Positions 12,948 through 30,780 of a stretch of 36,965 nucleotides of DNA are shown here, piece after piece (position 1 is the first letter of the stretch; every line of letters begins with the position of its first letter). The notes under the pieces are model-generated. The model saw only the letters and a list, made by a program, of their open reading frames with translations, did not search any database and was not told the origin of the DNA. Origin of the DNA: Actinomycetota bacterium (GTDB lineage Bacteria; Actinomycetota; Acidimicrobiia; Spongiisociales; UBA5794); NCBI GenBank assembly GCA_030123765.1, contig JASJXX010000018.1, positions 1-36,965 on the forward strand, given 5' to 3'. A program made the translations under genes and the position numbers.

Positions 12948-14564
12948 TCAGGCCATGTCACGCAGATCCACTCGGCGAATCTTGTCTGAGATTGTCTTGG
13001 GCAGTTCAGCCAGGTACGTGATCTCCCGCGGATACTTGTAGGGGGCCGTGATCGCCTTGACGTGGTCCTGGATCTCGAGGGTGAGTTCGTCCGAGCCCTC
13101 GTACCCGGGGGCCAGCACGATGAAGGCCTTCACGATGTTGCCCCTCGCAGCATCTGGCTTAGCAACTACCGCCGCTTCAGCCACGGCAGGGTGCTCGATT
13201 AGCGCCGACTCCACCTCGAACGGTCCGATCCGGTAAGCCGAGGAGAGGATGACATCGTCGGACCGCCCGATGAACCAGAAGTAGCCATCGGTGTCGCGAT
13301 ACGCCCGGTCCCCGGTGTAGTACCAGCCGTGGCGGAACGCCCCCGCAGTCCGCTCCTCGTCTCGCCAGTACCCGCGAAACAGCCCGACCGGCCACGGGTC
13401 GGTCCGAACGGCGATGGTGCCCTCCACGCCATCGGCACAGACCTCCCCGTCGTCATCGACGACCTCTGTGTCGATGCCCGGGACGGGACGGCCCATCGAG
13501 CCAGGTTTGACAGGGAGGTTCGGGTAGTTCGCGACCAGGCAGATAGTCTCGGTCTGGCCATAACCGTCATAGGGAACCATCCCCGTAGCCGCCTCCCAGG
13601 TCTCGATGACCTCGGGGTTGAGGGGCTCACCGGCACTGGTGCAGTGCCGCAACGTCGACCAGTCATATACGGAGAGATCCATCTGAGCGAATGCTCGATA
13701 GAGAGTTGGCGGAGCACAGAACGACGTGACTCCCAGCTCACCGATCAGGCGCAGCATCCGGTCGAAGTCGGGCTTGCCGACAATGTTCCACATCACGACC
13801 GGAGTACCGACGATCCATTGGCCGAACAGCTTCCCCCAAGCCGCCTTCGCCCATCCGGTGTCCGACACCGTCCAGTGGATGTCGTCCGGGCTCAGGTCGT
13901 GCCAGAACCGGGCGGTGATCTCGTGGCCGAGCGCGTAGGAGCCGACATGCTGGACCATCTTGGGGTGTGCCGTCGTTCCCGACGTGAAGTAGAGGATGAG
14001 TGGGTCATCCGAGCGTGTCGCTTCCATCGGCGCGGGACCGCCCGGCATAGCGTCGAGCGCAGCGCCGAACGCTGTCCAACCGGCCCGCTCGGCACCGACC
14101 ACGAACCGGGCCGTGAGGGAGGGGCACTGGTCGAGGACTTCATCAAGGCGGGCGGCTCCCACTTCGTCGCAGACAGCTGCCACCGCATCCGCCTGGTTGA
14201 TGCGATAGGACTGGTCCTTGGGCATCAGCTGAGTGGTTCCGGGCATCGGGATCGCCCCGATCTGGAAACATCCCAGCAGAACGGCGTACCACTCGACCAC
14301 GCGGGGGAGCTGTACGAAGACGCGATCACCTCTCGCGATCCCGTTGCTCCGAAGGAGGTGGGCGGAGCGGTGGGCGAGGGCGGTGAGTTCGCCGAACGTG
14401 TAACGGTTGATCGTGACACCGTCAGATTCAACAGCGATGAGGGCGACCTTATCGGGAGTCTCGACTGCCCGAGCACCAAGCACATCACCCGTAAAGTTGA
14501 AGTACTCGGGCACCTGGACTCGAAAGTTGGCCCGAATCTCGTCGTAGTCGTCCATGTTTACCAT
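12948..14564 (-). CDS. medium-chain acyl-CoA ligase-like AMP-forming synthetase
   Basis: Activates a carboxylic acid to its CoA thioester via an acyl-AMP. The ANL core motifs are YFTSGTTAHPK (P-loop), YDGYGQTE (A5), YYTGDRAYRD, and FWFIGRSDDVILSSAYRIGPFEVE at the hinge to the small C-terminal domain. The catalytic lysine block reads LPKTISDKIRR, with Asp where most relatives have Gly. The region PMPGTTQLMPKDQSYR and the TVSDTGWAKAAWGK stretch resemble ACSM-type medium-chain ligases. At 538 aa it has normal length, with ATG 14564 behind a GGAGGTG site. It abuts the decayed kinase and does not carry the island promoter, so its link to the island pathway is uncertain. Confidence 0.87.
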   Translation of the reverse strand: MVNMDDYDEIRANFRVQVPEYFNFTGDVLGARAVETPDKVALIAVESDGVTINRYTFGELTALAHRSAHLLRSNGIARGDRVFVQLPRVVEWYAVLLGCFQIGAIPMPGTTQLMPKDQSYRINQADAVAAVCDEVGAARLDEVLDQCPSLTARFVVGAERAGWTAFGAALDAMPGGPAPMEATRSDDPLILYFTSGTTAHPKMVQHVGSYALGHEITARFWHDLSPDDIHWTVSDTGWAKAAWGKLFGQWIVGTPVVMWNIVGKPDFDRMLRLIGELGVTSFCAPPTLYRAFAQMDLSVYDWSTLRHCTSAGEPLNPEVIETWEAATGMVPYDGYGQTETICLVANYPNLPVKPGSMGRPVPGIDTEVVDDDGEVCADGVEGTIAVRTDPWPVGLFRGYWRDEERTAGAFRHGWYYTGDRAYRDTDGYFWFIGRSDDVILSSAYRIGPFEVESALIEHPAVAEAAVVAKPDAARGNIVKAFIVLAPGYEGSDELTLEIQDHVKAITAPYKYPREITYLAELPKTISDKIRRVDLRDMA

Positions 14565-14994: not shown

Positions 14995-15768
14995 TCAACC
15001 GTACATGACGGCGCCGGAATTGACATTGATGTCCGCGCCGGTGATCGCCGCGGCTTGGTCAGAAGCGAGGAATACGCAGGCGTCGGCGATATCGCTCGCT
15101 TCGGTCAGTCGATTGAGGGGTGATTCAGCTTCGAACTCGGCTCGGACTTGGGCCGCGGTGATGCCTCTGCCCTCGGCCTGGGCTTGGATGACCCAGTCGA
15201 TACGAGGGCCAGCAACGAACCCGGGGGAGATGAGGTTGACCCGGATCCCGTGAGACCCGGCTTCGAGCGCGAGTGTCCGGGTGAGCCCGATGAGCGCAGC
15301 CTTCGACGTGGTGTAGGGAGTCCGACCCCAGAGGGGCCGCTTGCCACTGATCGACCCGATGATGATCACCGACCCGGAGCCGCGTTCGACCATGTGCGGG
15401 AAGAGCGCCCTACACACCAGAAACACCCCGGTCACGTTCACGGCGAATGTCTGCTCCCAGTCAGCAAGGTCGAGATCCCATAACTGACCGCTTGGGCCCG
15501 CGACGCCACTGTTGATCACCACCACGTCGACTCGACCGAAGCGGTCGAGCAGAGCGGTCGCCATCGCATCGACAGCACCCGCGTCGGTGACGTCGGTGGG
15601 TACCACGAGCGTCTCTACACCGTACTCGCCAGCATCCGCAGCGGTCCTCGTCAGGTTGGCCTCGTTGCGTGCGGCCAACACGAGAGAATCCCCTCTGGCA
15701 GCGAATGCGAGAGAGATCTCTCTGCCGATGCCCTGCCCGGCCCCTGTAACGAGCGTTACCCTGCTCAC
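14995..15768 (-). CDS. short-chain dehydrogenase/reductase (last gene of operon 1)
   Basis: Classical SDR of 257 aa acting on an alcohol/ketone pair with NAD(P). It shows TGAGQGIG (cofactor loop), VVINSG in place of the usual NNAG, the catalytic Ser in IIGSISG and the YTTSK Tyr/Lys pair, then SPGFVAGPR. The C-terminus SGAVMYG ends at the decayed kinase. Its start overlaps the HisD-like dehydrogenase stop in ATGA. Paired with that gene, a two-enzyme oxidation of neighbouring hydroxyl groups is plausible. Substrate not identifiable. Confidence 0.88.
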   Translation of the reverse strand: MSRVTLVTGAGQGIGREISLAFAARGDSLVLAARNEANLTRTAADAGEYGVETLVVPTDVTDAGAVDAMATALLDRFGRVDVVVINSGVAGPSGQLWDLDLADWEQTFAVNVTGVFLVCRALFPHMVERGSGSVIIIGSISGKRPLWGRTPYTTSKAALIGLTRTLALEAGSHGIRVNLISPGFVAGPRIDWVIQAQAEGRGITAAQVRAEFEAESPLNRLTEASDIADACVFLASDQAAAITGADINVNSGAVMYG

Positions 15769-17057
15769 TGCGTCACTCGCAGCGCATCAGGGAAGTATTC
15801 GGGGTTGAGCCGCAGGCGGGAACTGATGGCGTGGCCGTACATCAGCTCGGCATCCGCCACTACAGCGGCATGCTCGGCGATCCTCTGCGATCCCCCCGCC
15901 GTAACGCGCTGCGTCGTCACCGTCTTGAGGTACTTGCCAACCCACAGCCCGCCGGTGTAGCGGCTCGCACCCATCGTCGGTAGCGTGTGGTTCGTACCGA
16001 TGGCTTTGTCGGAGAACGCCACCGTTGCGTGGGTACCGATGAACAAGCTTCCATAATTGGTGAGCCGCGTCACGAACCATTCGGGGTCAGCCACTTGCAC
16101 TTCGAGATGCTCCGGCGCGGCATCGTCGGCAACTTTCGCCATCTCCTCGTCGTCTTCGCACAGGATCACCGTGCCGTAATCGCGCCACGCTGCTCCGGCC
16201 ACATCTGCCGTCGGCCAGGTCTCGAGCCAACGGTCGACCTCGATGATCGTCTCTCGACCAAGATCCCGCGAGGTAGTCACCAAGATTGCGGGTGAGGTTG
16301 GGCCGTGCTCTGCCTGGCCCAACAGGTCGCACGCCACCACCGCGGGGTCTGCGGTATCGTCGGCGATCACCATGATCTCGGTCGGACCCGCAAGCAGGTC
16401 GATGCCAACGGTGCCGAAGAGCTGTCGCTTCGCTTCGGCCACGTAGGCGTTGCCCGGACCAGCGATCAGATCCACCGGGTCGGAACCTTCAAGACCGAAC
16501 GTCATCGCCGCCAGTGCCTGGACGCCTCCCACACAGAAGATCTCATCGGCTCCCGACTTGACCATCGCCCACAACTGCGGTCTGTGCATACCAAGCTCGT
16601 TCCTGGGTGGAGCACACGCAACCACCCTCGGCACTCCGGCAACCTTGGGTGTCACGACAGTCATCACGGCAGACGCTATCAACGGATACTGACCACCCGG
16701 CGAATACGCACCGGCCGAAGCCACCGGGATGTGCTTCTGGCCCAGAATCACCCCGGGCAGCGTCTCGACCTCAAAATCGATCAACGTGTCGCGTTGCAGA
16801 CGCGCGAAATTTGTGACCTGATCGATGAGGAATTGTGCGCTCTCTTCGACCTCTGGCTCTATCTCTCGCAATGCGCGGTCGATTTCTTCGCCACTCACCC
16901 GAAACGACGGTGGGCTCCAGTTGTCGAACCGCTCCGAGTAGCGGCGCACGGCCGCGTCACCCTCTCGCGCCACGTCGCTGATTATCTGCGACACGGTTGC
17001 CCTGATCTCATCCGTTACATGTTCCGGCGCCCTGACGGGCTCTCTCATATACTCCAC
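15765..17057 (-). CDS. histidinol-dehydrogenase-family alcohol dehydrogenase (HpsN-like), probably not HisD
   Basis: Zinc- and NAD-dependent four-electron dehydrogenases of this family oxidise a primary alcohol to a carboxylate. The chain keeps AGAYSPGGQYPL, the IAGPGNAYVAEAKR block, GPTEIMVIAD, the Gln/His zinc pair in LLGQAEHG and the GTNHTLPT block. The C-terminal metal His is in MYGHAISSRLRL. HisD usually has QAEHD and a different segment after NHTLPT; here TGGLWVGKYLKTV recalls sulfopropanediol dehydrogenase HpsN and other catabolic HisD paralogues. It sits in a catabolic operon away from any his genes. The start is GTG 17057 with GAGGAG 8 nt upstream. I am confident of the family but not of the substrate. 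Confidence 0.85.
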   Translation of the reverse strand: MEYMREPVRAPEHVTDEIRATVSQIISDVAREGDAAVRRYSERFDNWSPPSFRVSGEEIDRALREIEPEVEESAQFLIDQVTNFARLQRDTLIDFEVETLPGVILGQKHIPVASAGAYSPGGQYPLIASAVMTVVTPKVAGVPRVVACAPPRNELGMHRPQLWAMVKSGADEIFCVGGVQALAAMTFGLEGSDPVDLIAGPGNAYVAEAKRQLFGTVGIDLLAGPTEIMVIADDTADPAVVACDLLGQAEHGPTSPAILVTTSRDLGRETIIEVDRWLETWPTADVAGAAWRDYGTVILCEDDEEMAKVADDAAPEHLEVQVADPEWFVTRLTNYGSLFIGTHATVAFSDKAIGTNHTLPTMGASRYTGGLWVGKYLKTVTTQRVTAGGSQRIAEHAAVVADAELMYGHAISSRLRLNPEYFPDALRVTQ

Positions 17058-17069
17058 GGTCGGGCTCCT

Positions 17070-17789
17070 CTAGTCTTGTTTCGTATCTGTCGTATGGGCG
17101 GGTCGTGCTAGCCACGATCGCAACGCCGCCGTCACGGCCTCAGGTGCGTCGATCGTCGAGAGGTGGCCAGCCGCGGGAACAATTGCCAGCTCCGCTCCCG
17201 AGATTCGAGCCGCAATCTCCTCATGCAACACGACCGGGCACACGGCATCTTCTGCACCACAAAGGACGAGGGTCGGACATTCGATCTGACCGAGAACGCC
17301 ACTGTTGTCGGGTCTATGGGAGTTCGCGTGGTTCTGGCGGAGAAAAGCTTCCGGCCCGATGGCGGCTGCCATGTCGAGCACCAGCTGCCTCAGCCTCCTG
17401 TCCTCCTGCCTGTGAATCAGAATCGGAGCCAGCCGCTCAGGTGTGATCCGATCGAAGTCGCCATCGAGGGTCATCTGCTCGAATACCGTCCACGTCGCTA
17501 CCTGTGCCTTCGTCGGAGGGGTGTGGTTGGTGTCGAGCAGCGCCAGGTGTGTCACGCGTTGAGGCGCGACGCGCACGACCTCGAGCGCTACGATGCCACC
17601 GAGGGAGAGACCGCCGAGCGCGAATTTCTCTGGCGCGGCGTCGAGCACCGACTCCGCCATGCCCTCGATAGTGTCTGCTGTTGTCAGGTCACCGACTCTC
17701 ACGTCGGCGAGAGCGGACAGCTGTTCAACCTGGTGGGAGAACAAGCGCTCGTCACAGAGCGTGCCCGGCAGCAGGAGAAGGCTGGTCAT
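17070..17789 (-). CDS. alpha/beta hydrolase
   Basis: A 239-aa alpha/beta-fold hydrolase of the esterase/lactonase type. It shows the oxyanion-region start LLLLPGTLCDERLF, the nucleophile elbow GLSLGG, the acid in LVLCGAEDAVCPV and the catalytic His in PAAGHLSTIDAPE. There is no signal peptide, so it is cytoplasmic. Its ATG overlaps the bicupin gene stop in ATGA at 17786-17789. In a pathway context it could open a lactone or ester made by the neighbouring dehydrogenases; this is inference. 3-oxoadipate enol-lactonase-like enzymes have the same architecture. Confidence 0.85.
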   Translation of the reverse strand: MTSLLLLPGTLCDERLFSHQVEQLSALADVRVGDLTTADTIEGMAESVLDAAPEKFALGGLSLGGIVALEVVRVAPQRVTHLALLDTNHTPPTKAQVATWTVFEQMTLDGDFDRITPERLAPILIHRQEDRRLRQLVLDMAAAIGPEAFLRQNHANSHRPDNSGVLGQIECPTLVLCGAEDAVCPVVLHEEIAARISGAELAIVPAAGHLSTIDAPEAVTAALRSWLARPAHTTDTKQD

Positions 17790-18949
17790 GGGATCGCGCG
17801 GAAGTGCTGGCCGAGAAGGTGCTTGGGGGCCAGGTACCCGCTTGCATCAATGCCCCACCCGGCCTTCTCGGCGGCCCCAACCGTCTCGGCCGGCCACTCG
17901 ATGCGGGTCCGGCTTTCGCCGCCGTTGATGACGAGCATCACTGCGTCTTTGTCGCTCTCATTGCGGAATGACCTCCATGCGTTCCGTGGGACAGATACGA
18001 CCGATCCGGGCTCGAGCGATCGCGATAACTTGTCGGGTCCGACGTTGACCTCGAGGGTCCAACCGGGGTCTGCGATGAGCAGGACCTGCGTGTCGGAGTG
18101 CCGGTGTGTCGAGACGCTCTCGCCCCCCGCTACTGCGAGCCATTCAATGCTGAAACCGTGCAGGTTGCGGATGGGGGGCTCGTGGTCCCTGTCCATGGTC
18201 ATTCCCCACCCCAATACCGGTGCGAGGCGACTGGCGTGTCCCGGCAGCACAGCGTCGAGGAGCGCTCGATCACTCCAGGCGAGGTCACCGTCCGCGATCA
18301 GTCTTTCGGCGAGTTCCGCATCGGTGTAACGCCGCAGACTGTCGATATCCGTCTCTGACATCGGAGATACCAGCTCAACGGAATCGTCGATGACGTCCCC
18401 CGATTCCGTGTCCAACAGAACGCCGTCGACGGTGAGGTAAAGACCTGTAAGGGATGCCTGGTGCATGACCTTGGGCGACCACATTATGCCCCCCGTGTCG
18501 TCACCGCCGAGCACCGCGTAGAGAGTGACGTCGTCGGTACCGACGTTGCGAAAGCCGCGGAAGATCCACGTAGGAACCGAGAACACGAAGCGCCCCGAAA
18601 CCGCGATCCGTTGATCGGATTCAACGCCGACACGGAACTCGTACTCACCACCGAGGGAGACGAACACTTCTGCCGTGTAGTGCAGGTGCTGGCTGTTGAT
18701 AGCTCCGCCAGGTAGCCCGGCCGCACCCAGGTTGAATCCGTGAGACTCCCTCACGTTGACGTGTTGGTCCGGGTTCTGCGAGACGCCTGGACCAATCATC
18801 GAATAGTTCAGCTTTCCCTGGGAGTCCGGGAGGCGGACATCGAGGAACGCAGCTTCGTCGGCGACAAAGGCACTTGGCGGGATGATGCGCCGGTCGAAAT
18901 CCTCTGGAGTGACGCTCTCGATCTCAGGCATGTCTGTCTCTTGTCTCAT
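17786..18949 (-). CDS. two-domain cupin protein
   Basis: A 387-aa bicupin. The first cupin (residues about 70-165) has QHLHYTAEVFVSLGGEYEF and FSVPTWIFRGFRN. The second (about 265-355) has STHRHSDTQVLLIADPGW, LEPGSVVSVPRNAWRSFRN and an FRN repeat of the same motif. The HxH-x3-E set in domain one can hold a metal; domain two has HRH without an obvious Glu. It could be a ring-cleaving dioxygenase, an isomerase or a sugar-binding cupin; I cannot choose. It overlaps both neighbours by ATGA and is in the middle of the SnoaL/dehydrogenase operon. An alternative start at 18931 (MPEIES) lacks the overlap. Confidence 0.8.
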   Translation of the reverse strand: MRQETDMPEIESVTPEDFDRRIIPPSAFVADEAAFLDVRLPDSQGKLNYSMIGPGVSQNPDQHVNVRESHGFNLGAAGLPGGAINSQHLHYTAEVFVSLGGEYEFRVGVESDQRIAVSGRFVFSVPTWIFRGFRNVGTDDVTLYAVLGGDDTGGIMWSPKVMHQASLTGLYLTVDGVLLDTESGDVIDDSVELVSPMSETDIDSLRRYTDAELAERLIADGDLAWSDRALLDAVLPGHASRLAPVLGWGMTMDRDHEPPIRNLHGFSIEWLAVAGGESVSTHRHSDTQVLLIADPGWTLEVNVGPDKLSRSLEPGSVVSVPRNAWRSFRNESDKDAVMLVINGGESRTRIEWPAETVGAAEKAGWGIDASGYLAPKHLLGQHFRAIP

Positions 18950-20151
18950 CTGGTCTGACTTCCTCCGGTCGCGTGTCGCTCGAACGTTCTGGATGTGGCG
19001 GGTTCAGTGGCATGGATCTGTTTGAGAAGCGAGAACTCGTCGAAAACAGTCCACTCGGCGGCTATCTGCCCGTTGCGTACAAGGTGGTGAGAGAAGCCGA
19101 TCAGTTGGATCTTGCGGCCGCTCGGTGGCCCATGCGGTCCCGGGCCGTCGTGTGTTCCGTGGAGACGCCAGCGCGTCGCGACGACTCTTCCCCCGTGTCT
19201 CGCGTTCGACATCACGTGCTCGACGTCGATAGTCACGTCGGAGAACTCGGAGAACCAGCCGAGCAGGAAGTGCCGATAGTCGGCCGGGCTGTCCAGTGAC
19301 CGGTTCGTTGAGGTCGAGACAACGGCGTCGGGGCTGAAATAACTCTCGACGAGATCGACACGCCGCTCGTTCCACACGTCGTGAAACATCGAGCGCACGA
19401 GATGCTCCTCCATGACCTGGCCAGGCCGAAGGGTGCCGATCGGCTCCGGTTGGATCCGGAGCGGCGTTCCGTCGGCCACGCCAACGGCCGGGACCACCAA
19501 CCCGCCGCGCGCCTCGGCTTCAAGGCTGCCGATCTCCCTGGCGAGAGCGACCTCATCGAATCCGAGTGACCTCACCAGGTTGAGCTCGTCTCTTGTGAGC
19601 CACTCCTCAATCACCATGTTCTCGCGAACCACCGTATGGGCCACCGTCCGGCGAACGAACGTCAGTCCCGTTGGAGGGCCATAGGCGGTCCTGCCGAGGT
19701 GGGTCCCGGTGTGAGTCATCCGGTGTGAGCAGTGGAAGCCTGCGACGTCATCGCCCGACCAGACAACGTCGTCACCGTGGAGCCGGATGTCGGGATAGGC
19801 CGACTGGGTTGCGATGGTGGATTTAATGATGAGATCCCGGCCGTGCTGAGTGCCTTCGCTCGTGTGGAGGGGGAAGCTGTCGGCGTAGTGCGTGTGGAGA
19901 AGGTCGATCTCGCCCTCCTCCCAGATGCGGTGGGTACATCGAATGATGTAGTGGACGATGTCTGCATAGATCTCATCAAAACCTTCGAGATCCTGTCGCC
20001 GCTTGCCGTCATCGGCAAAAAAGTCTTCGAGCAGCGAACCCGCAGCGACAACTACGGGGTCGAGGGTCCCGGGCACAGCATGCAGCCACGTCATGTCAGG
20101 TAGGTTGGCCCACCCGCCCGAACGCCCGGCATCCGACGCTGTACCTCTCAT
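18946..20151 (-). CDS. tandem SnoaL-like (NTF2-fold) protein
   Basis: Two NTF2-fold SnoaL-type domains in one 401-aa chain. The first (about 60-195) runs through IIRCTHRIWEEGEIDLLHTHYAD to VIEEWLTRDEL. The second (about 245-375) runs from MFHDVWNERRVDLVESYFS to AAEWTVFDEFSLLKQI. The pattern of initial helix, WxxG or NxRR turn, central beta strands with GRxxxFVRR or GRKIQLIGF and final EEW/AEW is typical of the ester cyclase/SnoaL group. Members include cyclases, isomerases, hydrolases and dehydratases. Translational coupling (ATGA) ties it to the next SnoaL gene upstream and the bicupin downstream. The exact reaction is unknown. Confidence 0.8.
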   Translation of the reverse strand: MRGTASDAGRSGGWANLPDMTWLHAVPGTLDPVVVAAGSLLEDFFADDGKRRQDLEGFDEIYADIVHYIIRCTHRIWEEGEIDLLHTHYADSFPLHTSEGTQHGRDLIIKSTIATQSAYPDIRLHGDDVVWSGDDVAGFHCSHRMTHTGTHLGRTAYGPPTGLTFVRRTVAHTVVRENMVIEEWLTRDELNLVRSLGFDEVALAREIGSLEAEARGGLVVPAVGVADGTPLRIQPEPIGTLRPGQVMEEHLVRSMFHDVWNERRVDLVESYFSPDAVVSTSTNRSLDSPADYRHFLLGWFSEFSDVTIDVEHVMSNARHGGRVVATRWRLHGTHDGPGPHGPPSGRKIQLIGFSHHLVRNGQIAAEWTVFDEFSLLKQIHATEPATSRTFERHATGGSQTR

Positions 20152-21152
20152 GTAGCGTCGATCTCTAGCAGTGGAGCTCTGATCGAGCCTCCCGGAAACA
20201 GCTCATGACCTAACTGAGATGCGATATCAGGGAGATCGATCAAGACCCAGTTCTCGGTGAGAAGAGATCCCTCGGCGCGCCACCAGTCCATGACTCGCAT
20301 CGTGACCTCGAGACCGGTCTTCGGAATGCCGAGATACTCGGCTGAGTGGGTTGCGACCAAGCTTGGCCAGCCAGCGGATGCTGCATACGGGCCGTCACCG
20401 AATAACGAGATTTCGCCAGCGCCGCGCCGGTCGGGGAATGATGTGAGGAAGGGCCGCTGATGTTGATCCTCGAACCCTTCGACGCCGACCGTGCTTCCGA
20501 TACCACCCGGTCCGTACCAGAACATGTTGGGGTGCCAGTACTCGCGCATGCGCATCGACTCGAGGCGTTCTCCGTCGTACTGCAGCAGGCCATCGAACAG
20601 CATCCTGTGCACGAGCTCCACCGCTCCGAAACCGTCGGCAGCATCGCTGTGAATGAATCCGTTGTCGGTGGGCGGTCCTGGGACGAGGTCGGCGTCGTAC
20701 CTCCCGTCTGGCAGAAGATCGTGGCCGGCACGGTGTGCGAGGTCGAGAATGTCGAGAAGGAGGAGGGTGTCACCGATCTTGCCACGGGTCATGTCGTGGA
20801 AGACACCAAAGCGCAGCGCTGCGGGAGACCCAGTTGGGGGTATACCGAGCCACTCCGCTGTGAACTCGCCCGTCAAGTAGCCGGTTCCAGTAACCCATAA
20901 CGCGTCCTCCTGTTCTCCGGAGATCAGGACGTGCCATTCGACGTCGAGTTCTCCGAGCGCATGCCGAACGGGCTGCCAGCAGCTCGATCCGAACGCGGAG
21001 GAACGCAGTTCGTTGATCGGGTGAGACACGCTCCAACGACTATCAGGGGCCACTGCTCGCGCAACGACATCGTTGAGATCCTCGGCAGGGGCGTGTCCGA
21101 GGAGATTCCAGAACTCAAGCACATCGTCTCTCGCACGGGTGACGTCTGCCAT
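20148..21152 (-). CDS. tandem SnoaL-like (NTF2-fold) protein, paralogue of its upstream neighbour
   Basis: Another double NTF2-fold protein, 334 aa. Its second half, with HQRPFLTSFPDRRGAGE, SAEYLGIPKTGLEVTMRVMDWWR and ENWVLIDLPDIASQLG, closely matches the single-domain protein encoded just upstream (HQRPFLHAFPDKRADDQ, GDWLGIPATGEPVEVRYMDIWR, ENWVLIDILGFLEQLG). The two therefore share a recent ancestor. The first half is a diverged copy (GYLTGEFTAEWLGIPPTGSPAALRFG spread over residues about 110-135). I take ATG 21152, spaced well from AGGAAG; the GTG one codon earlier overlaps the upstream stop. Its stop overlaps the next gene by ATGA. Confidence 0.8.
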   Translation of the reverse strand: MADVTRARDDVLEFWNLLGHAPAEDLNDVVARAVAPDSRWSVSHPINELRSSAFGSSCWQPVRHALGELDVEWHVLISGEQEDALWVTGTGYLTGEFTAEWLGIPPTGSPAALRFGVFHDMTRGKIGDTLLLLDILDLAHRAGHDLLPDGRYDADLVPGPPTDNGFIHSDAADGFGAVELVHRMLFDGLLQYDGERLESMRMREYWHPNMFWYGPGGIGSTVGVEGFEDQHQRPFLTSFPDRRGAGEISLFGDGPYAASAGWPSLVATHSAEYLGIPKTGLEVTMRVMDWWRAEGSLLTENWVLIDLPDIASQLGHELFPGGSIRAPLLEIDAT

Positions 21153-21655
21153 CACCCTTCCTGCCGATCTGGGTCAGCGACCCGGTCGAAGAACTCAGGC
21201 TGTTTCGATCCTATGAAGCGAAGGACGTTGCCGATGTTGTAGCCGAGCTGTTCCAGGAAGCCGAGGATGTCGATCAGCACCCAGTTCTCCACAAGTCTGC
21301 CATCTTCGGCCCGCCAGATGTCCATGTACCTCACCTCGACCGGCTCACCCGTCGCGGGGATACCGAGCCAGTCCCCATCGTGGGTGGCATGCTGGACTCC
21401 TGCCGCGGCTGCCCACTCTCCACACCCGAAGCGAATCTGGTCATCTGCACGTTTGTCGGGGAACGCGTGCAGAAAGGGGCGCTGATGGTTCTCCTGGAAG
21501 TCGGCGAGTCCATGCTTCGTTCCGATGCCCGCGGGTCCCCGCCACACCATGTCGTCAGACCAGTACGCCTCCTGGCCATCGATCACGTGCTCGTTGAGAG
21601 CCGCGACCATCGCGGCGACGAGTTCGAGTGCGTTGGTGTCCTTCCCCTCCGTCAT
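21152..21655 (-). CDS. single SnoaL-like (NTF2-fold) protein, first enzyme gene of operon 1
   Basis: A 167-aa NTF2-fold protein: AAMVAALNEHVIDGQEAYW, MVWRGPAGIGTKHGLADF and the closing ENWVLIDILGFLEQLGYN. The start ATG at 21655 is behind GGGAG and overlaps the end of the upstream regulator relic in ATGA; a start at 21694 would lie inside the relic. It is the first enzyme gene after promoter A. Its near-copy is fused into the next gene. Function could be cyclisation, dehydration or isomerisation of a pathway intermediate, but no catalytic set can be assigned with confidence. Confidence 0.82.
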   Translation of the reverse strand: MTEGKDTNALELVAAMVAALNEHVIDGQEAYWSDDMVWRGPAGIGTKHGLADFQENHQRPFLHAFPDKRADDQIRFGCGEWAAAAGVQHATHDGDWLGIPATGEPVEVRYMDIWRAEDGRLVENWVLIDILGFLEQLGYNIGNVLRFIGSKQPEFFDRVADPDRQEG

Positions 21656-22153: not shown

Positions 22154-22975
22154 TCAGAGGCTGAACAGGCGTTCGTAATCCTCGTCGGTGACGGTCTTGT
22201 ACCCTGGCGTCGGAAGCGCCTGGAACCCTCTTCCACCATCGATATAGATCGACTGGCCGAAGATGAAGTCCGAGTCGTCACTCGCAAGAAACACGGCCAA
22301 CCGTCCGCACTCCCGCGGCGTGCCGACGCGTCCAAGCGGCGTCCGTGAGAGGATCGTGTCCATGAGCTGCTTGTCGGATCCGACCCTGCGCATCAAGTCA
22401 GTCTCTATGGGCCCAGGCGCCATCGCGTTGACCTTGATGTTGTGGGGAGCGAGCGCAACCGCCTGTACTTTGGTCAGCTGCGCGATACCACCCTTGGACG
22501 TGGTGTAGACGACCTGCGAGTCCAAGGCGAGGTGCGCGTTCACGGAGGACATATTGATGATGACGCCCCCATCCCCCTGCTTGATCATCTGTCGGGCAGC
22601 CCTCTGTCCCCCGAAGAACATGCCCTTGAGGTTGACACCCATGATCCGGTCATACTGCTCGGGCGTGACGTCGAGAAAGTGGGTCTTGTCGGCATCGTTG
22701 ATGCCCGCGTTCGCCACGTAAATGTCAAGTCGGCCGAATCGCTCAACCACCCGCTCGATTATCTTGTCCAAGTCAGCGAGACGCGAGACATCACAGTTGA
22801 CGAAGATCGCCTCTCCACCAACGGACTCGATCTCCCTGACACCTGCTTCCCCGGTCTCGTCGGTCGTACCACCGATCACCACCTTCGCTCCTTCGAGCGC
22901 GAACTCCAGCGCAATACCGAGCCCGATGCCTTTGGTTCCACCGGCGATGACCGCCACTCTGTCTCTCAGTTTCAT
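22154..22975 (-). CDS. short-chain dehydrogenase/reductase (last gene of operon 2)
   Basis: Classical SDR, 273 aa, with GGTKGIG cofactor loop, VANAG, catalytic Ser in INMSSVN, YTTSK and APGPIETD. It has IDGGRGFQ near the end, followed by an unusual 20-residue C-terminal tail. NAD(P) dependence is expected, but the acidic-residue test after strand two (IGGTTDE) is not decisive. The gene lies 43 nt after the aldolase and ends operon 2. It probably oxidises or reduces a hydroxyl on the demethylated carbon skeleton; substrate unknown. Confidence 0.88.
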   Translation of the reverse strand: MKLRDRVAVIAGGTKGIGLGIALEFALEGAKVVIGGTTDETGEAGVREIESVGGEAIFVNCDVSRLADLDKIIERVVERFGRLDIYVANAGINDADKTHFLDVTPEQYDRIMGVNLKGMFFGGQRAARQMIKQGDGGVIINMSSVNAHLALDSQVVYTTSKGGIAQLTKVQAVALAPHNIKVNAMAPGPIETDLMRRVGSDKQLMDTILSRTPLGRVGTPRECGRLAVFLASDDSDFIFGQSIYIDGGRGFQALPTPGYKTVTDEDYERLFSL

Positions 22976-23018: not shown

Positions 23019-23804
23019 TCACCCGTCGCCGTATACGCTGCGGAAGGCGGCCACGGCCTCGTCCCCCACTCGTCGCAGCGTCGCGCCGTCCTGCATCACG
23101 ACGATCCACTGATAGCCCTTTTCGAAGTAGGCCCTAGCCTCGTTCCAGTCGGCTGCGAGCGTGCCCAGAAACTTGTCGGAAGCCAGTACGCTCTCCTCGA
23201 TCGCGGCAATCGTCTCCTGCACTTCCGGTTGCGTCGCGTTGCCCAGGTATCCCATGCTGCTCGCGAGATCCATTGGACCGACAAATATGCCGTCCAGCCC
23301 TGCGACCGAGAGTATCTCATCAAGATTCTCCACCGCCTGAGCTGTCTCTACGGCGACGATCACGACGGTTTCTGCGTTGGCCGAAGTGAGATAACGCATG
23401 ACGTCGCCCGTATAGCCCGCGGCGCGCGGACTACCCGCAACACCACGAACTCCTTGCGGCGGATACTTGCAGGCTGCAACCGCGGCCTCTGCTTCCTCGC
23501 GCGTGTTGACGTAGGGGACGAGCACGCCCATCACGCCAGTATCGAGGATTCTCTTGATTGCAACCGCGTCATTCCAGGGAGCTCGCGCGAATGGAACGAC
23601 TCCGGATCCGTTCATGGCCTGTAGCTGGGCCTGTAAGTTCGCGAAGTCGCCTGGGGCATGTTCGAGGTCGACGATGAGCCAGTCGAACCCCGACCGACTC
23701 ATGATCTCTGCTGCAATGGGGCTGATTGTCTGGAGGAAGCCGCCAACGGTCTTCTGACCTCGTTCCAATTTTCGCTTTACCGGGTTTCCTATGGCTCTAT
23801 TCAT
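23019..23804 (-). CDS. HpcH/HpaI-family class II aldolase
   Basis: A TIM-barrel, metal-dependent aldolase that cleaves a 2-oxo-hydroxy acid to pyruvate (or a relative) and an aldehyde. Visible motifs: FDWLIVDLEHAPGDF (catalytic His region), RAPWND (substrate Arg), GVRG, the metal Glu in VAVETAQAVEN and the metal Asp in FVGPMDLASSMG. At 261 aa it has family length. I choose ATG 23804 with TGGGA just upstream; a GTG at 23822 would add six residues. It probably performs the carbon-carbon cleavage at the end of operon 2's pathway. Related members include 2-dehydro-3-deoxyglucarate and 4-hydroxy-2-oxoheptanedioate aldolases. Confidence 0.88.
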   Translation of the reverse strand: MNRAIGNPVKRKLERGQKTVGGFLQTISPIAAEIMSRSGFDWLIVDLEHAPGDFANLQAQLQAMNGSGVVPFARAPWNDAVAIKRILDTGVMGVLVPYVNTREEAEAAVAACKYPPQGVRGVAGSPRAAGYTGDVMRYLTSANAETVVIVAVETAQAVENLDEILSVAGLDGIFVGPMDLASSMGYLGNATQPEVQETIAAIEESVLASDKFLGTLAADWNEARAYFEKGYQWIVVMQDGATLRRVGDEAVAAFRSVYGDG

Positions 23805-23858
23805 GAAATTCCCACAGTTCACCGTCGTTCTGCCTCGTGGAGTTACCTGTAGACATCA

Positions 23859-25079
23859 CTATCCGTGCCGAGCGAAGTACGAGGAATCTCTCTCAAGGAT
23901 GTTCCCCAGACTCGCCGGGTCCTGGCCGAGCTTTCTCGCCTTCTCGAAGAGGGTGACCACGTTCTCTGGGGGGACATCGTGACCGATATTGTGGCAGGGC
24001 GCGAGTATGAAGCCGCCGTTACGACCCAAGTCGTAGATGCGTAGGGCGATCTCCTGTTCCAGTTCATCCGTGGTGGCATTGGGCAACATCTGCTGTACGT
24101 CGATCGCACCGTGGAAAGACAAACGATCGCCGAAGGACTCCTTCAACGCAAACGTGTCTTGCATCCCCGTCAGGGACGTCTGCACCGGATTGAGGATGTC
24201 GACGTTCATCTCCAGGAAGTCGTCAATCAGCGGCAGCACAGCGCCATCGGTGTGGAACATCAGTTGGACATCGGCGAGGCTCTTGATGTGGTCATGCAAC
24301 TCTTTGATCCGAGGCTTGATCATCTCGCGGAACAACTTGGGCGAGATCAGCAGCGAAGTCTGTGAACCAAGATCGTCGGTCAAGTAGACGATCTGAACAA
24401 AGGGCCCAACCTCCTCCATGTAGCGGCTCCACATCTCCTTCAGCGTCGAGAGGATCCGGTCCATCAGCGCCTCGGCGAACTCCTTGTCGATGACAAGGTC
24501 CATGAAGAACTGTTCGAACCCCCGCATCTGCAACGAGTTCATCAGTACGCCAGCTTTGATGGCATCGGCGCCGATCACGTAATCCGTGTTCTCGAAGAGG
24601 TGCTTCGCTTGTTCGCGCATGCCCTTGAACTGGTCCGGGTCATGGGGGTCGGGCCACTGGAAATCGTCGATCGTGTCCACTGTGGCGTGCAGCAGAGGAG
24701 CGCCGTCCACAACGTAGTGGTCTACGGTCTCAGTGGCCTTGTAAGGCACGCCCCACATGTCGACGTAGCCGAGGACGTCCTCGCGTTCGGTGACCTGCAC
24801 CCAATGCGGCACGACCCATCGGAAATCGATGTCGAATCGCTGGAGCAGCGATTCGTCTGGCACAACGGTCTGTGCCATTCGATCCAGAATCGTGTTCTCG
24901 TTGACCATGGTTTCATCGCCGAGATAGTCCCGAAGCTTGATGTAGGCACCGCGGTGAAGGGAACCTATGTGTTTCCCCATGTCGATCAGTAAACGATCCG
25001 GCTGCTCATGGTTCATCGCGGCAGAGAAGCACTCTCGTGGCGTCATCACTCTCTCTCTGCCAGATCCTCTCAACGTCAT
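23859..25079 (-). CDS. uroporphyrinogen-decarboxylase-like (MtaA/CmuA-type) corrinoid methyltransferase
   Basis: A 406-aa UroD-fold protein opening MTPRECFSAAMNHEQPDRLL, a typical start of UroD-like methyltransferases rather than heme-pathway HemE. The likely zinc site is His276-Thr-Asp278 (LMFHTDGAV) with Cys362 (LAPCHNIGHDVPPENV). MtaA/MtbA enzymes have His-x-Cys and a distal Cys, so one Cys is replaced by Asp. In context it would transfer the methyl group of the substrate to the corrinoid protein encoded in the same operon. It lies 21 nt after the isomerase gene, with GAGAGG before ATG 25079. HemE is unlikely because the surrounding genes are catabolic. Confidence 0.82.
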   Translation of the reverse strand: MTLRGSGRERVMTPRECFSAAMNHEQPDRLLIDMGKHIGSLHRGAYIKLRDYLGDETMVNENTILDRMAQTVVPDESLLQRFDIDFRWVVPHWVQVTEREDVLGYVDMWGVPYKATETVDHYVVDGAPLLHATVDTIDDFQWPDPHDPDQFKGMREQAKHLFENTDYVIGADAIKAGVLMNSLQMRGFEQFFMDLVIDKEFAEALMDRILSTLKEMWSRYMEEVGPFVQIVYLTDDLGSQTSLLISPKLFREMIKPRIKELHDHIKSLADVQLMFHTDGAVLPLIDDFLEMNVDILNPVQTSLTGMQDTFALKESFGDRLSFHGAIDVQQMLPNATTDELEQEIALRIYDLGRNGGFILAPCHNIGHDVPPENVVTLFEKARKLGQDPASLGNILERDSSYFARHG

Positions 25080-25100
25080 AATGTCCTCTCCGCCTGATCG

Positions 25101-26543
25101 CTAGAAATTTTCATCCATCACGACGGGCTCGATATTCAGCATCTCGCACAGGAACACGAGGTCTCGTACCCAGATTCCAGCTACTCCAGAGATGTGGTTG
25201 GATCCGAACTCGTCAACGAAGCGGCCCAGATCAGCTTCGACTCTCACAAAGGCAGTCGGCAGCTGGTGCTTTCCCCGTTCCTGTGTGAATGAGGCTAGAT
25301 CCTCGTCCGACATCCTGATGACTTCACCAGGGATGATGGCCATTCGGTACTGACCGGCGACACGGTACAGCCGTGCAAGTGTGATCGGACCCGGCGCGGC
25401 CACGAAATACGTGATCGCGCCGCCTCCTGGCCGGAGCGAGGGACGCAATTCGACGCGCCCCAAATTCTCCGAAACGTTATCCGATCGACCCGCGAACCAG
25501 GTGCACATGCCGCCGCAGTTCGGCAGATACAATATCTTCCGGCTCTCATCCATGTGGCTGACATCAGCAAATAGGGTTGAGCCGCCGCCAGACACCTCCT
25601 TGAGAATCTCCATGCTCAAAGCGCCGTCGCCGTCTGCTTCGCACGACATCGAACAAGGCTGCTTCGCTCCTTCTGCATCATAGGGGCCGGGCATGAGCGC
25701 GGCAGAGATGCACTGCGGGACATAGTTATCCGACAGTTCAGGCATGCACTTGACGGCGATGAAGTCGAGGCCTTTCTCCGCGTTGATGTCCTTGTTGGCG
25801 AGATAGCAGCGGAGCTGAAACTCGAGTTTGTCTTCAGTCAGCTTGTCGTCGTCGAAAGCGATGGAAGCAAATTGCTCGCGTGTCCAGCTCATCATTTTAT
25901 CAACCCGGCTCTGGTCGATGAGCTCCGCCCGGCGCACGATCTCCAGTTGGTCGATGTGCTCAACATCCACGCCAAATTGCGAGCGCCACTGCATCGGGTC
26001 GAAGGTACCGGTGTCGATGCCCAGCGAGCGACCACCGAAGAGACCCATAACCCGGCCTCTCAGCCGGGCTTTCGTCGAGGCGGCGCGGAGATACGGCAGC
26101 ACCTTCTCCTCGAAGACAGGAGCGCCGAAATCGTCTCTCACCCTGATGTGATCGATTCCGACCTGGGAGACGGCACCGGATGCAGCGAGCAGACCGACCA
26201 TGCCATGAGTAGCCGCGCTCGTGCTGGTCATCATCACCGTCGGCAGATCGAGGGCCTGAACCGCTCGCACGACGAGATTGGGGGTGGTCCAGCACGGCGT
26301 GTGCGCGAACAAGGCCTCTACCCCGGCTTCTTTCAGCACCCCGATCTGCCGGTCGATGCTCTCTTTCGAACGAGCAACTTCGTCGAATGTGGTCAGTTCG
26401 ACCGGCAGACTGCGCAGATAATTCACCGCCTCCTCGTGACGCGGTTCGGTCAGGCTCCCGAAGTAGCCCTCCCACATGTAGTCGCGGTCGTCGCCGAAGG
26501 TCATCAGACCCAATTTGGGCCTCGCCATTATCTGGCTGGTCAT
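25101..26543 (-). CDS. L-fucose/L-arabinose isomerase-family protein
   Basis: A 480-aa protein of the FucI/AraA superfamily, which interconverts aldoses and ketoses with Mn2+. The metal set known from FucI can be traced: Glu in SCEADGDGAL, Asp in LFADVSHMDE and His in GSNHISGVAG. Earlier blocks are LFAHTPCWTTP, GLFGGRSLGIDTGTFDP and LDFIAVKCMPELS. The ATG at 26543 follows AGGAG by 7 nt. The gene lies between the creatininase-type hydrolase and the UroD-like methyltransferase. It is the best sign that the skeleton being degraded is a sugar or polyol, but family members outside classic FucI are poorly characterised. Confidence 0.8.
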   Translation of the reverse strand: MTSQIMARPKLGLMTFGDDRDYMWEGYFGSLTEPRHEEAVNYLRSLPVELTTFDEVARSKESIDRQIGVLKEAGVEALFAHTPCWTTPNLVVRAVQALDLPTVMMTSTSAATHGMVGLLAASGAVSQVGIDHIRVRDDFGAPVFEEKVLPYLRAASTKARLRGRVMGLFGGRSLGIDTGTFDPMQWRSQFGVDVEHIDQLEIVRRAELIDQSRVDKMMSWTREQFASIAFDDDKLTEDKLEFQLRCYLANKDINAEKGLDFIAVKCMPELSDNYVPQCISAALMPGPYDAEGAKQPCSMSCEADGDGALSMEILKEVSGGGSTLFADVSHMDESRKILYLPNCGGMCTWFAGRSDNVSENLGRVELRPSLRPGGGAITYFVAAPGPITLARLYRVAGQYRMAIIPGEVIRMSDEDLASFTQERGKHQLPTAFVRVEADLGRFVDEFGSNHISGVAGIWVRDLVFLCEMLNIEPVVMDENF

Positions 26544-26557
26544 GGGGTTGCTCCTGT

Positions 26558-27376
26558 TCAGTTAGTCTGCGGACGCGTGCCGACGGGATACTGCTCCATG
26601 ATTTCACCGATCAGCTTGCTGACGTGACCCACCAGCCGCGTGACGAGGATCTCGCCCTTCTCGCGCGTGGCCTTGGTGGGATCTCCGACGCAACCGTTGG
26701 AATGCTCCAGTTTCTCGGGCAGCGCGAAGGTTCCTTCGAAGTGATACATCTGGCCCGGTTTGGGCATCATGCCGGGGGCGATCTTCCATTTTGGATCAAT
26801 CAACGAGGTGCTCGTACCCGGAGCGGCCTTGCTCATATCCACGAATTCGGGGTAGAGATATAGTCCCACGGAAGTCTCGGCCTCGTCGGCATGCCACATC
26901 TCGGCTTCTAACACGTCCTGGTTGTCGCGCAAGAAGTCATACCAGTGCAGCGATAGCACGAAGTATCCATCGATGCCCAGCTTGTGCACGGCGACGATTG
27001 TAGAAGAGACCTGCCCATGAGCCGACAGCAGGATGAACTTGTTGAACCCAGCAACGGCTGCGCCGCGCACGATGTCTTCCACCAGCGCAATGTGCGTCTC
27101 AAAGCGGAGCGGTATGGTTCCTTTGACACCCCAGTGGTGGTAGGGGTGGGATCCGTACATCGGACATGGGAGTACCGTCGCGCCGGACTTCTGTGCGACC
27201 AGTTCGCTCATGCCGATCGCGTTGAACGCGTCAGTGCCACAGGGGCAGTGTGGCCCGTGCTGCTCGGTGGCGCCCAACGGCAGGATCGCCACATCGTTGA
27301 CGCTTTTCGCGTACTCGACGACTTCTTGACCGGGCATCTCGTGGAACCACACCGACGATCGTTTGTTCTCAGTCAT
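26558..27376 (-). CDS. creatininase-family metal-dependent hydrolase
   Basis: A 272-aa member of the creatininase fold. The metal-binding block PLGATEQHGPHCPCGTDAFNA supplies Glu, His and Asp ligands. SAHGQVSS corresponds to the usual GHGGN-type loop in altered form, and ADEAETSVGL carries the distal Glu (usual HAGxxETS). Members open cyclic amides or act on cyclic ketones and peptides such as mycofactocin. Here the GHGGN Asn is replaced, so classic creatininase activity is doubtful. I place the start at ATG 27376, 7 nt after AAGGA; starting at 27415 would include that site. It sits 14 nt before the isomerase gene. Confidence 0.83.
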   Translation of the reverse strand: MTENKRSSVWFHEMPGQEVVEYAKSVNDVAILPLGATEQHGPHCPCGTDAFNAIGMSELVAQKSGATVLPCPMYGSHPYHHWGVKGTIPLRFETHIALVEDIVRGAAVAGFNKFILLSAHGQVSSTIVAVHKLGIDGYFVLSLHWYDFLRDNQDVLEAEMWHADEAETSVGLYLYPEFVDMSKAAPGTSTSLIDPKWKIAPGMMPKPGQMYHFEGTFALPEKLEHSNGCVGDPTKATREKGEILVTRLVGHVSKLIGEIMEQYPVGTRPQTN

Positions 27377-27442
27377 ATCTTTTCCTTCTTGCTCTCTTGG
27401 TCGTTTGTCTTTCACTTGGTAGTTGCGAGTCGGCCGACCGCT

Positions 27443-28528
27443 TTAGGGGGGCACGAGACTGAGCTCGCGATCGAGGCTCATCTCATCGCCGATCCGCAGC
27501 AGTTCGTCATAGAGCGTTCTCGGTAGTGGGATTCCGCTACGACGGCGCTCCTGTTCCGAGCGATGCTCGATCTCGCCGGGCAGCAACATCTCGCTGTGCT
27601 CGTCCCACATAGGCGATTCCTTGACGGTGTCGAAGAATTCGCCCATGCGGCGTTGCAGAACGTTCTTGCTCATGAAGACAAGCGGATTCATCACGAGCAT
27701 CAGATGGGCTGTCCTGCTCGGGTCGTCTGGATGGCGGTACATGCTCTTCAAGTGCTGCTGAAAGCTGCCGCCGGTGATCACGCCGGTCAGAATGTCGACG
27801 AGCAACGCGATGCCGAAGCCCTTATGTGCGGCCATGGGCAGCAGGAAACCTTCGAAGCCTGTCTTCGGGTCGCTGGTTGGTCGGCCATCCTTGTCCGTCG
27901 CCCACCCGAGGGGGATCTCCTCGCCATTTCTTGCAGCGACGAGGAGCTTCCCTCCTGCCACCGCGGACATTGAGATATCGAGGACGAACGGGAATTCGCC
28001 GAATGTGGGCACCGCAACAGCTACTGGATTGTTGCCGGTGATCGCTTCGCTAGCGCCGGGCATCACCATGTTTGGCGCTACGTTCGACATGGCCACGCCG
28101 ATCATTCCATGTTCGACGGCCATGCGGGCGTAAAGGGCGGTTGCGCCACAGTGATTGCTGTTGATGATGCCAACAGCGGCGATGTTGTCCTGCTCAGCGA
28201 TCTCAATCGCTCGTGACATTGCAGCGCTGGCAGCGACATACCCAGGCCCGTTGTCCGCATCCAGTACCTCAAGACCCGAGTCTGCCTTCAGTGTGCGAAT
28301 GTTGGGTGTCGGGTTCGTGGCGCCGGACCGCAGGCGATCCAGGTACTCCGGCACCCTCAAGACGCCGTGTGAATCGATGCCCCACAGGTTCGTCAGTACG
28401 AGGCAACGCGCCACCGTCGCGGCATGCGACGTGCTGCATCCAGTATGCCGAAACATCCCGGACACGAAGGTCTCGAGGGATTCGGCTGACACGTTGACGG
28501 CATTGTCGGCCATGATGGATTCGCTCAC
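27443..28528 (-). CDS. malate/L-lactate (Ldh2/YiaK-type) NAD(P) dehydrogenase
   Basis: A 361-aa member of the Ldh2 family, which oxidises 2-hydroxy acids or reduces 2-oxo acids and is unrelated to Rossmann-fold lactate dehydrogenase. The family blocks GIDSHGVLRVPEYL, INSNHCGATALYARMA, TGNNPVAVAVP and MAAHKGFGIALLVDILTG are present. I choose GTG 28528, 5 nt after AAGAGG; the ATG at 28513 is a second option, and an upstream extension to 28597 reads as Arg/Thr-rich non-protein. Relatives include ureidoglycolate, 2,3-diketogulonate and sulfolactate dehydrogenases. The product may feed the HpcH/HpaI aldolase. Confidence 0.87.
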   Translation of the reverse strand: MSESIMADNAVNVSAESLETFVSGMFRHTGCSTSHAATVARCLVLTNLWGIDSHGVLRVPEYLDRLRSGATNPTPNIRTLKADSGLEVLDADNGPGYVAASAAMSRAIEIAEQDNIAAVGIINSNHCGATALYARMAVEHGMIGVAMSNVAPNMVMPGASEAITGNNPVAVAVPTFGEFPFVLDISMSAVAGGKLLVAARNGEEIPLGWATDKDGRPTSDPKTGFEGFLLPMAAHKGFGIALLVDILTGVITGGSFQQHLKSMYRHPDDPSRTAHLMLVMNPLVFMSKNVLQRRMGEFFDTVKESPMWDEHSEMLLPGEIEHRSEQERRRSGIPLPRTLYDELLRIGDEMSLDRELSLVPP

Positions 28529-28559
28529 CCCCGCCTCTTCAGTTCGGGTCGTCGTCGGC

Positions 28560-28575
28560 CGTACACGCGTGTACG
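28560..28575. repeat. perfect 16-bp palindrome in the corrinoid-protein/dehydrogenase gap
   Basis: CGTACACGCGTGTACG reads the same on both strands and lies in the 99-nt gap between the corrinoid gene stop and the dehydrogenase GTG. It may be a protein-binding site inside the operon or an mRNA hairpin with almost no loop. No -10/-35 pair is evident around it. Confidence 0.6.
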
Positions 28576-28627
28576 AGTCTCTTGGTGACGGCCGCACAAG
28601 AGGTGACTCATCAGGCGGTCCGGGCGT

Positions 28628-29266
28628 TCACGATGAAACCGACGCGAGTCCGAGGGCTGCCCGTACGGCTCGAACAGCGTCCGAAGCGTCAGCCCCATAC
28701 GCATCCGCGCCGATCTCATCGGCGAAGTCCTGGGTGATCACGGCGCCCCCGACAACGATCCGCACGTCATCGCGGTGTTTGAAGTGGTCGATCACAGACC
28801 GCATCTCGTCCCGGGTTGTGCTCAGCAGAGCACTCAGACAGACAACTTCGGCCCCTCGCTCTACGGCTCCTTCAAAGTCTTCGACCAGGCAATCGACGCC
28901 CAAGTCCTCGACCTCGAAGCCGGATCCTTTGAGCATCATGACGACGAGGTTCTTGCCGATGTCGTGCACGTCACCCTTCACCGTTCCGACGCAGATCTTC
29001 GCTATCGGCTGGTGTCCAGACTTTGCGAGCAGTGGCTCGATAATGTCGATTCCTCCCTGCATCGCCCTTGCGGATACCAGCATCTCGGGCACGAACACTT
29101 CTCCGGTGGAGAACTGATCACCGACCTCGCGAAGCGCGGGAATCATCGTCACGTTGAGCAATTCGGAGACATCCTCATCGTTGGCCACTGCCTCCCGCAC
29201 GATCTCGATCACAACGTCCCGTTCGCCGAACACGATGGCGTCGTACAGTTCGTCATTGATGCTCAA
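28628..29266 (-). CDS. corrinoid (cobalamin-binding) methyl-carrier protein
   Basis: Methyl carrier between a substrate-specific methyltransferase and the tetrahydrofolate enzyme, 212 aa. Residues 1-85 form the helical cap domain (FVPEMLVSARAMQGG). Residues about 88-205 form the B12 Rossmann domain with GDVHDIGKNLV, in which His101 is the lower cobalt ligand, then LSALLSTT and VVGGAVIT. This matches MtaC/MtbC/MtvC-type two-domain carriers. The start is TTG 29266 with AGGAG 5 nt upstream, overlapping the relic stop as TTGA. It is the first enzyme gene of operon 2. Confidence 0.94.
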   Translation of the reverse strand: MSINDELYDAIVFGERDVVIEIVREAVANDEDVSELLNVTMIPALREVGDQFSTGEVFVPEMLVSARAMQGGIDIIEPLLAKSGHQPIAKICVGTVKGDVHDIGKNLVVMMLKGSGFEVEDLGVDCLVEDFEGAVERGAEVVCLSALLSTTRDEMRSVIDHFKHRDDVRIVVGGAVITQDFADEIGADAYGADASDAVRAVRAALGLASVSS

Positions 29267-29541: not shown

Positions 29542-29567
29542 GCGCACTCCAGATCGTCAGAAACTGC

Positions 29568-29597: not shown

Positions 29598-29730
29598 ACG
29601 ACACCCTCGCACTCGCACAATCATCGGTCGGCTCCAGAGACTGACCTGTCAGTTTGACGTGCGAGACGGTCTGGGTCGATCGTCTCATCGACGCGATCGG
29701 AGTGGGCGACATCGGCGACGACCGATCCGG

Positions 29731-30605: not shown

Positions 30606-30780
30606 TGGTTGTACCTCCGAGTCAGGGAACGCCAACTTCCGTTGAGCAAAGAATTCGTTGCATCGATTGCCCGCCGGATCGTCCATGGGACACATCTCGT
30701 AGGAGCGGAGCCACGCTCTCCAAATCCTGGTGGGCCGAATGATGTCCTTGCGAATGCCTTCGCCCCGCTTCGCCGGACCC

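Follow-up and report, generated by a model that had tools for sequence, protein, structure and literature searches.

Characterised enzymes of the SnoaL family (PF07366; SnoaL, AknH, IdmH, AclR and SnoaL2) are single-domain, biosynthetic proteins that come mainly from polyketide biosynthesis. The NTF2-like lyases of lignin catabolism, which are likewise single-domain and require no cofactor, offer a loose catabolic parallel. Here, we describe three overlapping genes, A, B and C, that encode five SnoaL/NTF2 domains in an Actinomycetota bacterium (assembly GCA_030123765.1, contig JASJXX010000018.1). They lie on the reverse strand of a stretch of 36,965 nucleotides, which was analysed as a whole and is called the window below; all other window genes mentioned are on the same strand. 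Proteins of the window type share with the described SnoaL family the family score, the predicted fold and the W..xD motif, but are mostly double-domain and are set among catabolic genes. We consider it reasonably probable that A, B and C serve as hallmarks of a catabolic module with a patchy distribution. Although the SnoaL family itself is known, the pathway is without description in the literature that we searched. In the open-licence PMC literature, no paper combines SnoaL or ‘ester cyclase’ with histidinol dehydrogenase, and no description of this module is among the matches listed. In the excerpted part of a paper on isethionate, ‘ester cyclase’ refers to chlorophyll-synthesis enzymes (PMC11423573).

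The SnoaL genes and the history of their domains

Gene A (21152..21655) encodes a single domain, here called type A, in 167 amino acids when read from the ATG at 21655; the mechanical open reading frame (ORF), which uses an upstream GTG start, has 180. Gene B (20148..21155; 335 amino acids) and gene C (18946..20151; 401 amino acids) encode two domains each, B1 and B2, and C1 and C2. The genes are joined by 4-nt overlaps, GTGA between A and B, ATGA between B and C, and ATGA again between C and the cupin gene that follows. Against the PF07366 cut-off of 28.4 bits, A scores 77.6, B 58.5 in two stretches and C 126.6; when the domains are scored singly, four of the five exceed the cut-off and B1 (20742-21071) falls below it with 23.9 bits. 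The AlphaFold2 model of B contains two complete SnoaL-type folds (mean predicted local distance difference test score, pLDDT, 86.6; predicted template modelling score, pTM, 0.88). That of C also contains two (pTM 0.79), with residues 1-40 at a pLDDT below 50. Both models match solved SnoaL-like structures with Z of 13-19, and the nearest solved structures include SnoaL-type proteins. An earlier note on this DNA had read five SnoaL/NTF2 domains in three overlapping genes, and the ORFs, the overlaps, the PF07366 scores and the AlphaFold2 models bear this out.

On two more specific models, the scores fall below the cut-offs. On the model of the SnoaL/DnrD polyketide methyl-ester cyclases (NF033407), A reaches 22.7 of 200 bits, and B and C have no match at an E-value of 0.1; on the ketosteroid isomerase-related model (TIGR02096), A, B and C reach 36.0, 17.2 and 49.7 of 97.1 bits. 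In all five window domains the W..xD motif keeps its Asp, which may correspond to the catalytic Asp121 of SnoaL; the Trp is lost in B1. The top Foldseek matches for B are the polyether epoxide hydrolases Lsd19 and MonBI-MonBII, presumably a two-domain chain and a hetero-complex, respectively. The matches are long and involve structures of about 270-280 residues. However, identity is 13-15% and whole-chain superposition fails (root-mean-square deviation 15-17 Å, template modelling score 0.31-0.40), so that a likeness to B in arrangement or chemistry is not demonstrated.

Domains A and B2 are close kin. They have in common the motifs NHQRPFLHAFPDK (A) and QHQRPFLTSFPDR (B2), LGIPATG and LGIPKTG, and an identical ENWVLID. 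They match each other well above chance (E 9.2e-31, 50% identity over 116 amino acids); in the domain alignment they are 48% identical, as compared with 13-23% for the remaining nine window pairs. The earlier note had proposed a recent duplication and fusion on the basis of such motifs. The paralogy of A and B2 is genuine, but the tree and the identities do not support its recency: window A shares 66% identity with an A gene of Chloroflexota, above its 48% with window B2, and the tree places B1 and B2 each with their counterparts from other loci. The closest relative of window A is found in an Anaerolineae locus (L049) in which C, A and B adjoin.

Our main domain tree comprises 133 domains and 126 columns (quick IQ-TREE run, with support from the Shimodaira-Hasegawa-like approximate likelihood ratio test only), after removal of three of 136 domains that covered fewer than 85 model positions. 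It separates C from A and B with a support of 100 and recovers a B1 group (98; 36 domains) and a B2 group (97; 38 domains). The B2 and A-type domains are joined with a support of 89; A forms two groups, and the division between C1 and C2 is not clean (support for C2, 74). In a second tree, built from 64 of the 133 domains of the module and, as an outgroup, 11 rows from the weak matches to B in related genomes, C, B1 and B2 each form one clade at 99 and A does not; a single module clade was not rejected (p 0.589), a result that does not demonstrate such a clade. Judging from these comparisons, the domain types A, B1, B2 and C are anciently separate and recur across phyla. Because the types group across phyla, and because window A is nearer to the Chloroflexota A than to B2, the duplications predate the dispersal of the types among phyla. 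The domain-level phylogeny thus points to a common operon history of the types, and distant unrelated clades are not what the data show.

Two Bacteroidota records carry a natural fusion of these genes. In both, C and B form one uninterrupted ORF with the order C1-C2-B1-B2 (locus L028, 8888-10930, 680 amino acids; locus L032, 8888-10942, 684 amino acids). These fusions suggest that B and C cooperate on one substrate, and they lend indirect support to hetero-oligomers, as the earlier note had envisaged. The two halves of the double proteins also differ in conservation. B2 is the better conserved half in 526 of 560 pairs among 34 B proteins, as is C1 in 207 of 231 pairs among 22 C proteins; in neither set are the pairs independent. 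The four-domain fusions, an A-A tandem gene and one of the 561 B pairs were omitted from this comparison. Each SnoaL domain type has its own motifs; in A, B2 and C1, conservation of the dense motifs and of the W..xD Asp is strong.

Distribution and gene neighbourhood

The genome that contains the window (2.2 Mb) has 11 PF07366 domains at an E-value of 0.001, in two places: five in the window and six on contig C144. The latter region (locus L026, G000:C144 13365-20000) has two type-C genes and a tandem A-A gene, whose halves both fall with type A in the tree. Between the two type-C genes lie the genes of a solute-binding protein and a permease of an ATP-binding cassette (ABC) transporter. This neighbourhood is incomplete, since the contig ends inside the last SnoaL gene. 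Among 98 related genomes we found no strong relative of B, and 10 gave weak matches (E 7.6e-6 to 9.2e-4); at 1e-20, a B-type match occurs in two of 396 genomes of the phylum, the window's own included. A scan of GTDB with short B patterns yielded 29 loci, with identities of 32-54%, from Bacteroidota, Pseudomonadota, Bacillota, Chloroflexota and Spirochaetota, and a plasmid search yielded 23 records, the haloarchaeon Halobellus limi among them. The operon therefore looks accessory and patchy, and from this patchiness we infer that it has spread by horizontal transfer.

The same families recur around B across phyla, in differing gene order and strand. In the 29 loci (tblastn, 1e-8), relatives of SnoaL C were found in 23, short-chain dehydrogenases/reductases (SDRs) in 22, a histidinol dehydrogenase (HisD) relative in 21, and the hydrolase, the double cupin and the HpaI-type aldolase in 15 each. 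Many of these loci are shorter than the 20 kb requested, owing to contig ends, and the counts are thus lower bounds. Clustering of ORFs in 34 loci added a LacI-type gene in at least 21, a TonB receptor in at least 13, a solute:sodium symporter (SSS) in at least 12 and a MetE-like gene in at least 10. These are also lower bounds, as a simple ORF picker was used and the alignment had to cover 60% of the longer ORF; the clusters were named from one or two representatives each, the LacI type from one. Among 21 related loci of at least 17 kb, 19 hold at least four SnoaL domains and 10 at least five. Several SnoaL domains per locus are hence normal in this gene family, and the copy number of the window, which had seemed unusual in the earlier note, is not.

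Individual loci illustrate how the gene sets vary. A plasmid of Ruegeria conchae carries five ester cyclases together with sugar ABC genes, HisD, SDR, LacI, cupin, MetE-like and hydrolase genes and an RraA protein; the list for a Paracoccus plasmid, with four ester cyclases and a similar gene set, shows no MetE-like gene. In Halobellus, five ester cyclases are accompanied by a MetE-like gene, ABC genes and, farther away, an HpaI-like aldolase; HisD and cupin are not listed there. Nor are they listed in the plasmid stretches of Vibrio pelagius and Phaeobacter, where ester cyclases stand beside ABC genes. About 10 kb from the five SnoaL genes and the MetE-like gene of Halobellus limi (L057 1545-3939), we observed catechol-2,3-dioxygenase-like and syringate/vanillate O-demethylase-like genes. 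These score below their cut-offs (248 of 320 bits, and 470 of 800 bits for the DesA-like gene) and may belong to a separate, neighbouring cluster. In another genome of the window's phylum (G358), LacI-, HisD-, SDR- and cupin-like ORFs, ORFs resembling ABC genes, a SnoaL B gene, a MetE-like ORF and a second SnoaL B gene lie on one strand. The MetE-like ORF adjoins a SnoaL B gene and is 42% identical to the one of Halobellus; an additional double-SnoaL ORF is also present.

In the window, 4-nt overlaps continue downstream of C into a double cupin (17786..18949) and an alpha/beta hydrolase (17070..17789; 73.2 of 255.85 bits on the 3-oxoadipate enol-lactonase model). After a gap of 12 nt follow a HisD-family dehydrogenase (15765..17057) and an SDR that overlaps it by 4 nt (14995..15768), and farther on an AMP-binding ligase (12948..14564). 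Upstream of A, beyond a gap of about 500 nt, are an SDR (22154..22975), an HpaI-type class II aldolase (23019..23822) and then genes of corrinoid methyl transfer. The corrinoid block (23859-33679; Pfam, NCBIfam) consists of a UroD/MtaA-like methyltransferase (23859..25079), a B12-binding corrinoid protein (28628..29266), a methylenetetrahydrofolate reductase-like protein (29757..30833; 30.4 bits, cut-off 24), a reductive activator of corrinoid proteins of the RACo type (30781..32790) and a pterin-binding methyltransferase (32768..33679). A 1e-60 match to the UroD-like gene occurs in two of 60 relatives, the window genome included. Neither the AMP-binding ligase nor the genes of the corrinoid block have a match in the 29 loci (tblastn, 1e-8). 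Inside the same gene run (25101-27415), we observed an L-fucose isomerase/sulfoquinovose isomerase-like gene (25101..26543; below the NCBIfam cut-offs) and a creatininase-family hydrolase (26558..27415), whose nearest NCBIfam model is IolN (172.2 of 245 bits, below cut-off). A dehydrogenase of the Ldh_2 family (27443..28597) and a DUF1638 protein (33876..34466) are also encoded.

The N-terminal domain of the cupin retains HxH and Glu, with Arg in place of the usual third His in at least 90% of 14 aligned rows; the cupin may bind a metal. The HisD-like enzyme scores 433.2 bits on the HisD family model TIGR00069 (cut-off 243.8). It is a paralogue of a second HisD in the genome (G000:C10), which has a different loop and scores 482.2 bits on the family model as compared with 439.3 for the window copy. 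Because this second copy scores higher, the window enzyme is probably not the one of histidine biosynthesis. It matches HpsN, the dehydrogenase of 2,3-dihydroxypropane-1-sulfonate (DHPS), with 389 bits, and the two best HisD structures with 255 and 251 bits. The catalytic Glu-His pair and the metal ligands named for HpsN are kept across 14 HisD rows (homologues of 560 amino acids or more were excluded from the HisD and cupin alignments). According to the part of the HpsN study available, HpsN has the loop motif GRY[A/S]H and HisD the motif GSAPL, and His126 binds the sulfonate and sets HpsN apart (PMC11382572). The window loop differs from both: it reads GG[KQR]YP[LM] in the window and in 12 of 14 homologues, and the pattern has no match in the other two. 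At the position of His126 the window has Leu (GQYPL), and the same 12 homologues have Leu or Met. In its loop, the window enzyme thus looks like a third subgroup, unlike HisD and HpsN as described.

A candidate catabolic pathway and its alternatives

Together, these genes would make up a pathway for the breakdown of a small polyhydroxylated compound, a substrate suggested by the transporters and LacI regulators that adjoin many copies. After uptake, oxidation of a CH2OH adjoining a C-OH to the acid would fall to the HisD-like enzyme, and that of a secondary alcohol to the SDRs; an ester, lactone or diketone would be opened by the hydrolase, and pyruvate set free by the aldolase. On enol or keto intermediates, the SnoaL proteins would carry out acid/base steps: isomerisation, hydration or elimination, retro-aldol cleavage or ring opening. 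Each double protein would be a fused pseudo-dimer, in which the more constrained halves, B2 and C1, are probably catalytic and B1 and C2 complete or tune the pocket. The corrinoid block of the window and the MetE-like gene in 10 of the 34 other loci hint that the substrate is methylated; the methyl group would be removed by the corrinoid methyltransferase set in the window, and possibly by the MetE-like enzyme elsewhere.

Several points weigh against this explanation. No single locus besides that of the window has been shown to carry the whole gene set. HisD has no match in the three Halobacillus loci, where an iron-type alcohol dehydrogenase is found, and is not listed in the plasmid stretches of Halobellus, Vibrio pelagius and Phaeobacter, for which the gene table is incomplete. 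SDR and LacI genes are common neighbours anywhere. As the corrinoid block has no match in the 29 loci, its link to the module depends on their common location in one genome. In 24 of the 34 loci we found no MetE-like gene, and MetE-like enzymes need not be demethylases. The C-B fusion argues for a complex of B and C but is no proof of it. Finally, the weaker conservation of B1 and C2 need not mean lost catalysis, and the Asp is kept in all five domains.

The SnoaL proteins might instead be non-catalytic, binding or scaffolding a reactive intermediate or regulating the pathway. Binding is a frequent role of NTF2-like folds, the structural matches include NTF2 itself and designed binders, and in each double protein one half shows clearly lower conservation. 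However, the strong conservation of the W..xD Asp and of the dense motifs in A, B2 and C1 speaks for catalysis, and the names under which most of the top sequence and fold matches were deposited are (putative) polyketide cyclase, ester cyclase or hydroxylase, which attests to kinship and not to activity; we regard a non-catalytic role as unlikely. One could also suppose that the genes are unrelated accessory functions that merely share an operon, the SnoaL genes being a lineage-specific expansion. The number and order of SnoaL genes do vary between loci, and the gene sets overlap without coinciding. Yet one meets the same families again in other phyla, with gene order and strand changed, and the B1, B2 and C domains each form one group across phyla. 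Moreover, HisD is a low-copy gene (two in the window genome) but lies within the 10-kb flanks in 21 of the 29 loci. This supposition is largely refuted and retains little probability. We give the least credence to the degradation of an organosulfonate, with the HisD-like enzyme as a relative of HpsN. The higher score of this enzyme against HpsN than against the HisD structures would fit, as would the match of the sulfoquinovose-isomerase-like ORF to the SftI model (63.4 of 700 bits). Nevertheless, the His that binds the sulfonate is replaced in the window and in most homologues, and no sulfonate lyase turned up among the window proteins scanned. The DHPS pathway was demoted because of this missing His.

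On the question of the substrate, mycosporine-type sunscreens offer a specific, if improbable, candidate with circumstantial support, which we arrived at by chemical reasoning from known structures and enzyme classes. In such a breakdown pathway, the amine substituents would be removed with the assistance of the SnoaL proteins, and the enol O-methyl group by corrinoid, MetE-like or folate enzymes. HisD would then oxidise the ring CH2OH beside the tertiary OH, and a metal cupin would cleave the resulting enediol. On paper, the ring product would be 4-carboxy-4-hydroxy-2-oxoadipate, from which an RraA- or HpaI-type aldolase would yield pyruvate and oxaloacetate. However, the RraA proteins of two plasmid loci reach 34.2 and 28.5 of the 304.5 bits of the carboxy-hydroxy-oxoadipate aldolase model, and the Arg at the usual third-His site of the cupin also argues against this route, as does the chance that the DesA-like and catechol-dioxygenase-like genes of Halobellus are part of another cluster nearby. 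In the part of a review available, a cited suggestion has Vibrio harveyi hydrolysing shinorine and porphyra-334 to mycosporine-glycine (PMC3083659).

The reading that we favour, a catabolic module for a small polyhydroxylated compound, can be addressed in culture, as SnoaL genes of this type are present in cultured strains of Halobacillus, Roseateles, Ruegeria and Paracoccus. Such a module, found in several phyla and marked by anciently specialised, fused SnoaL domains and by an unusual HisD-type enzyme, would provide testable partners for genes that are presently annotated just as ‘ester cyclase’. Should the substrate turn out to be a common methylated metabolite, its turnover would have a genomic marker in this module.

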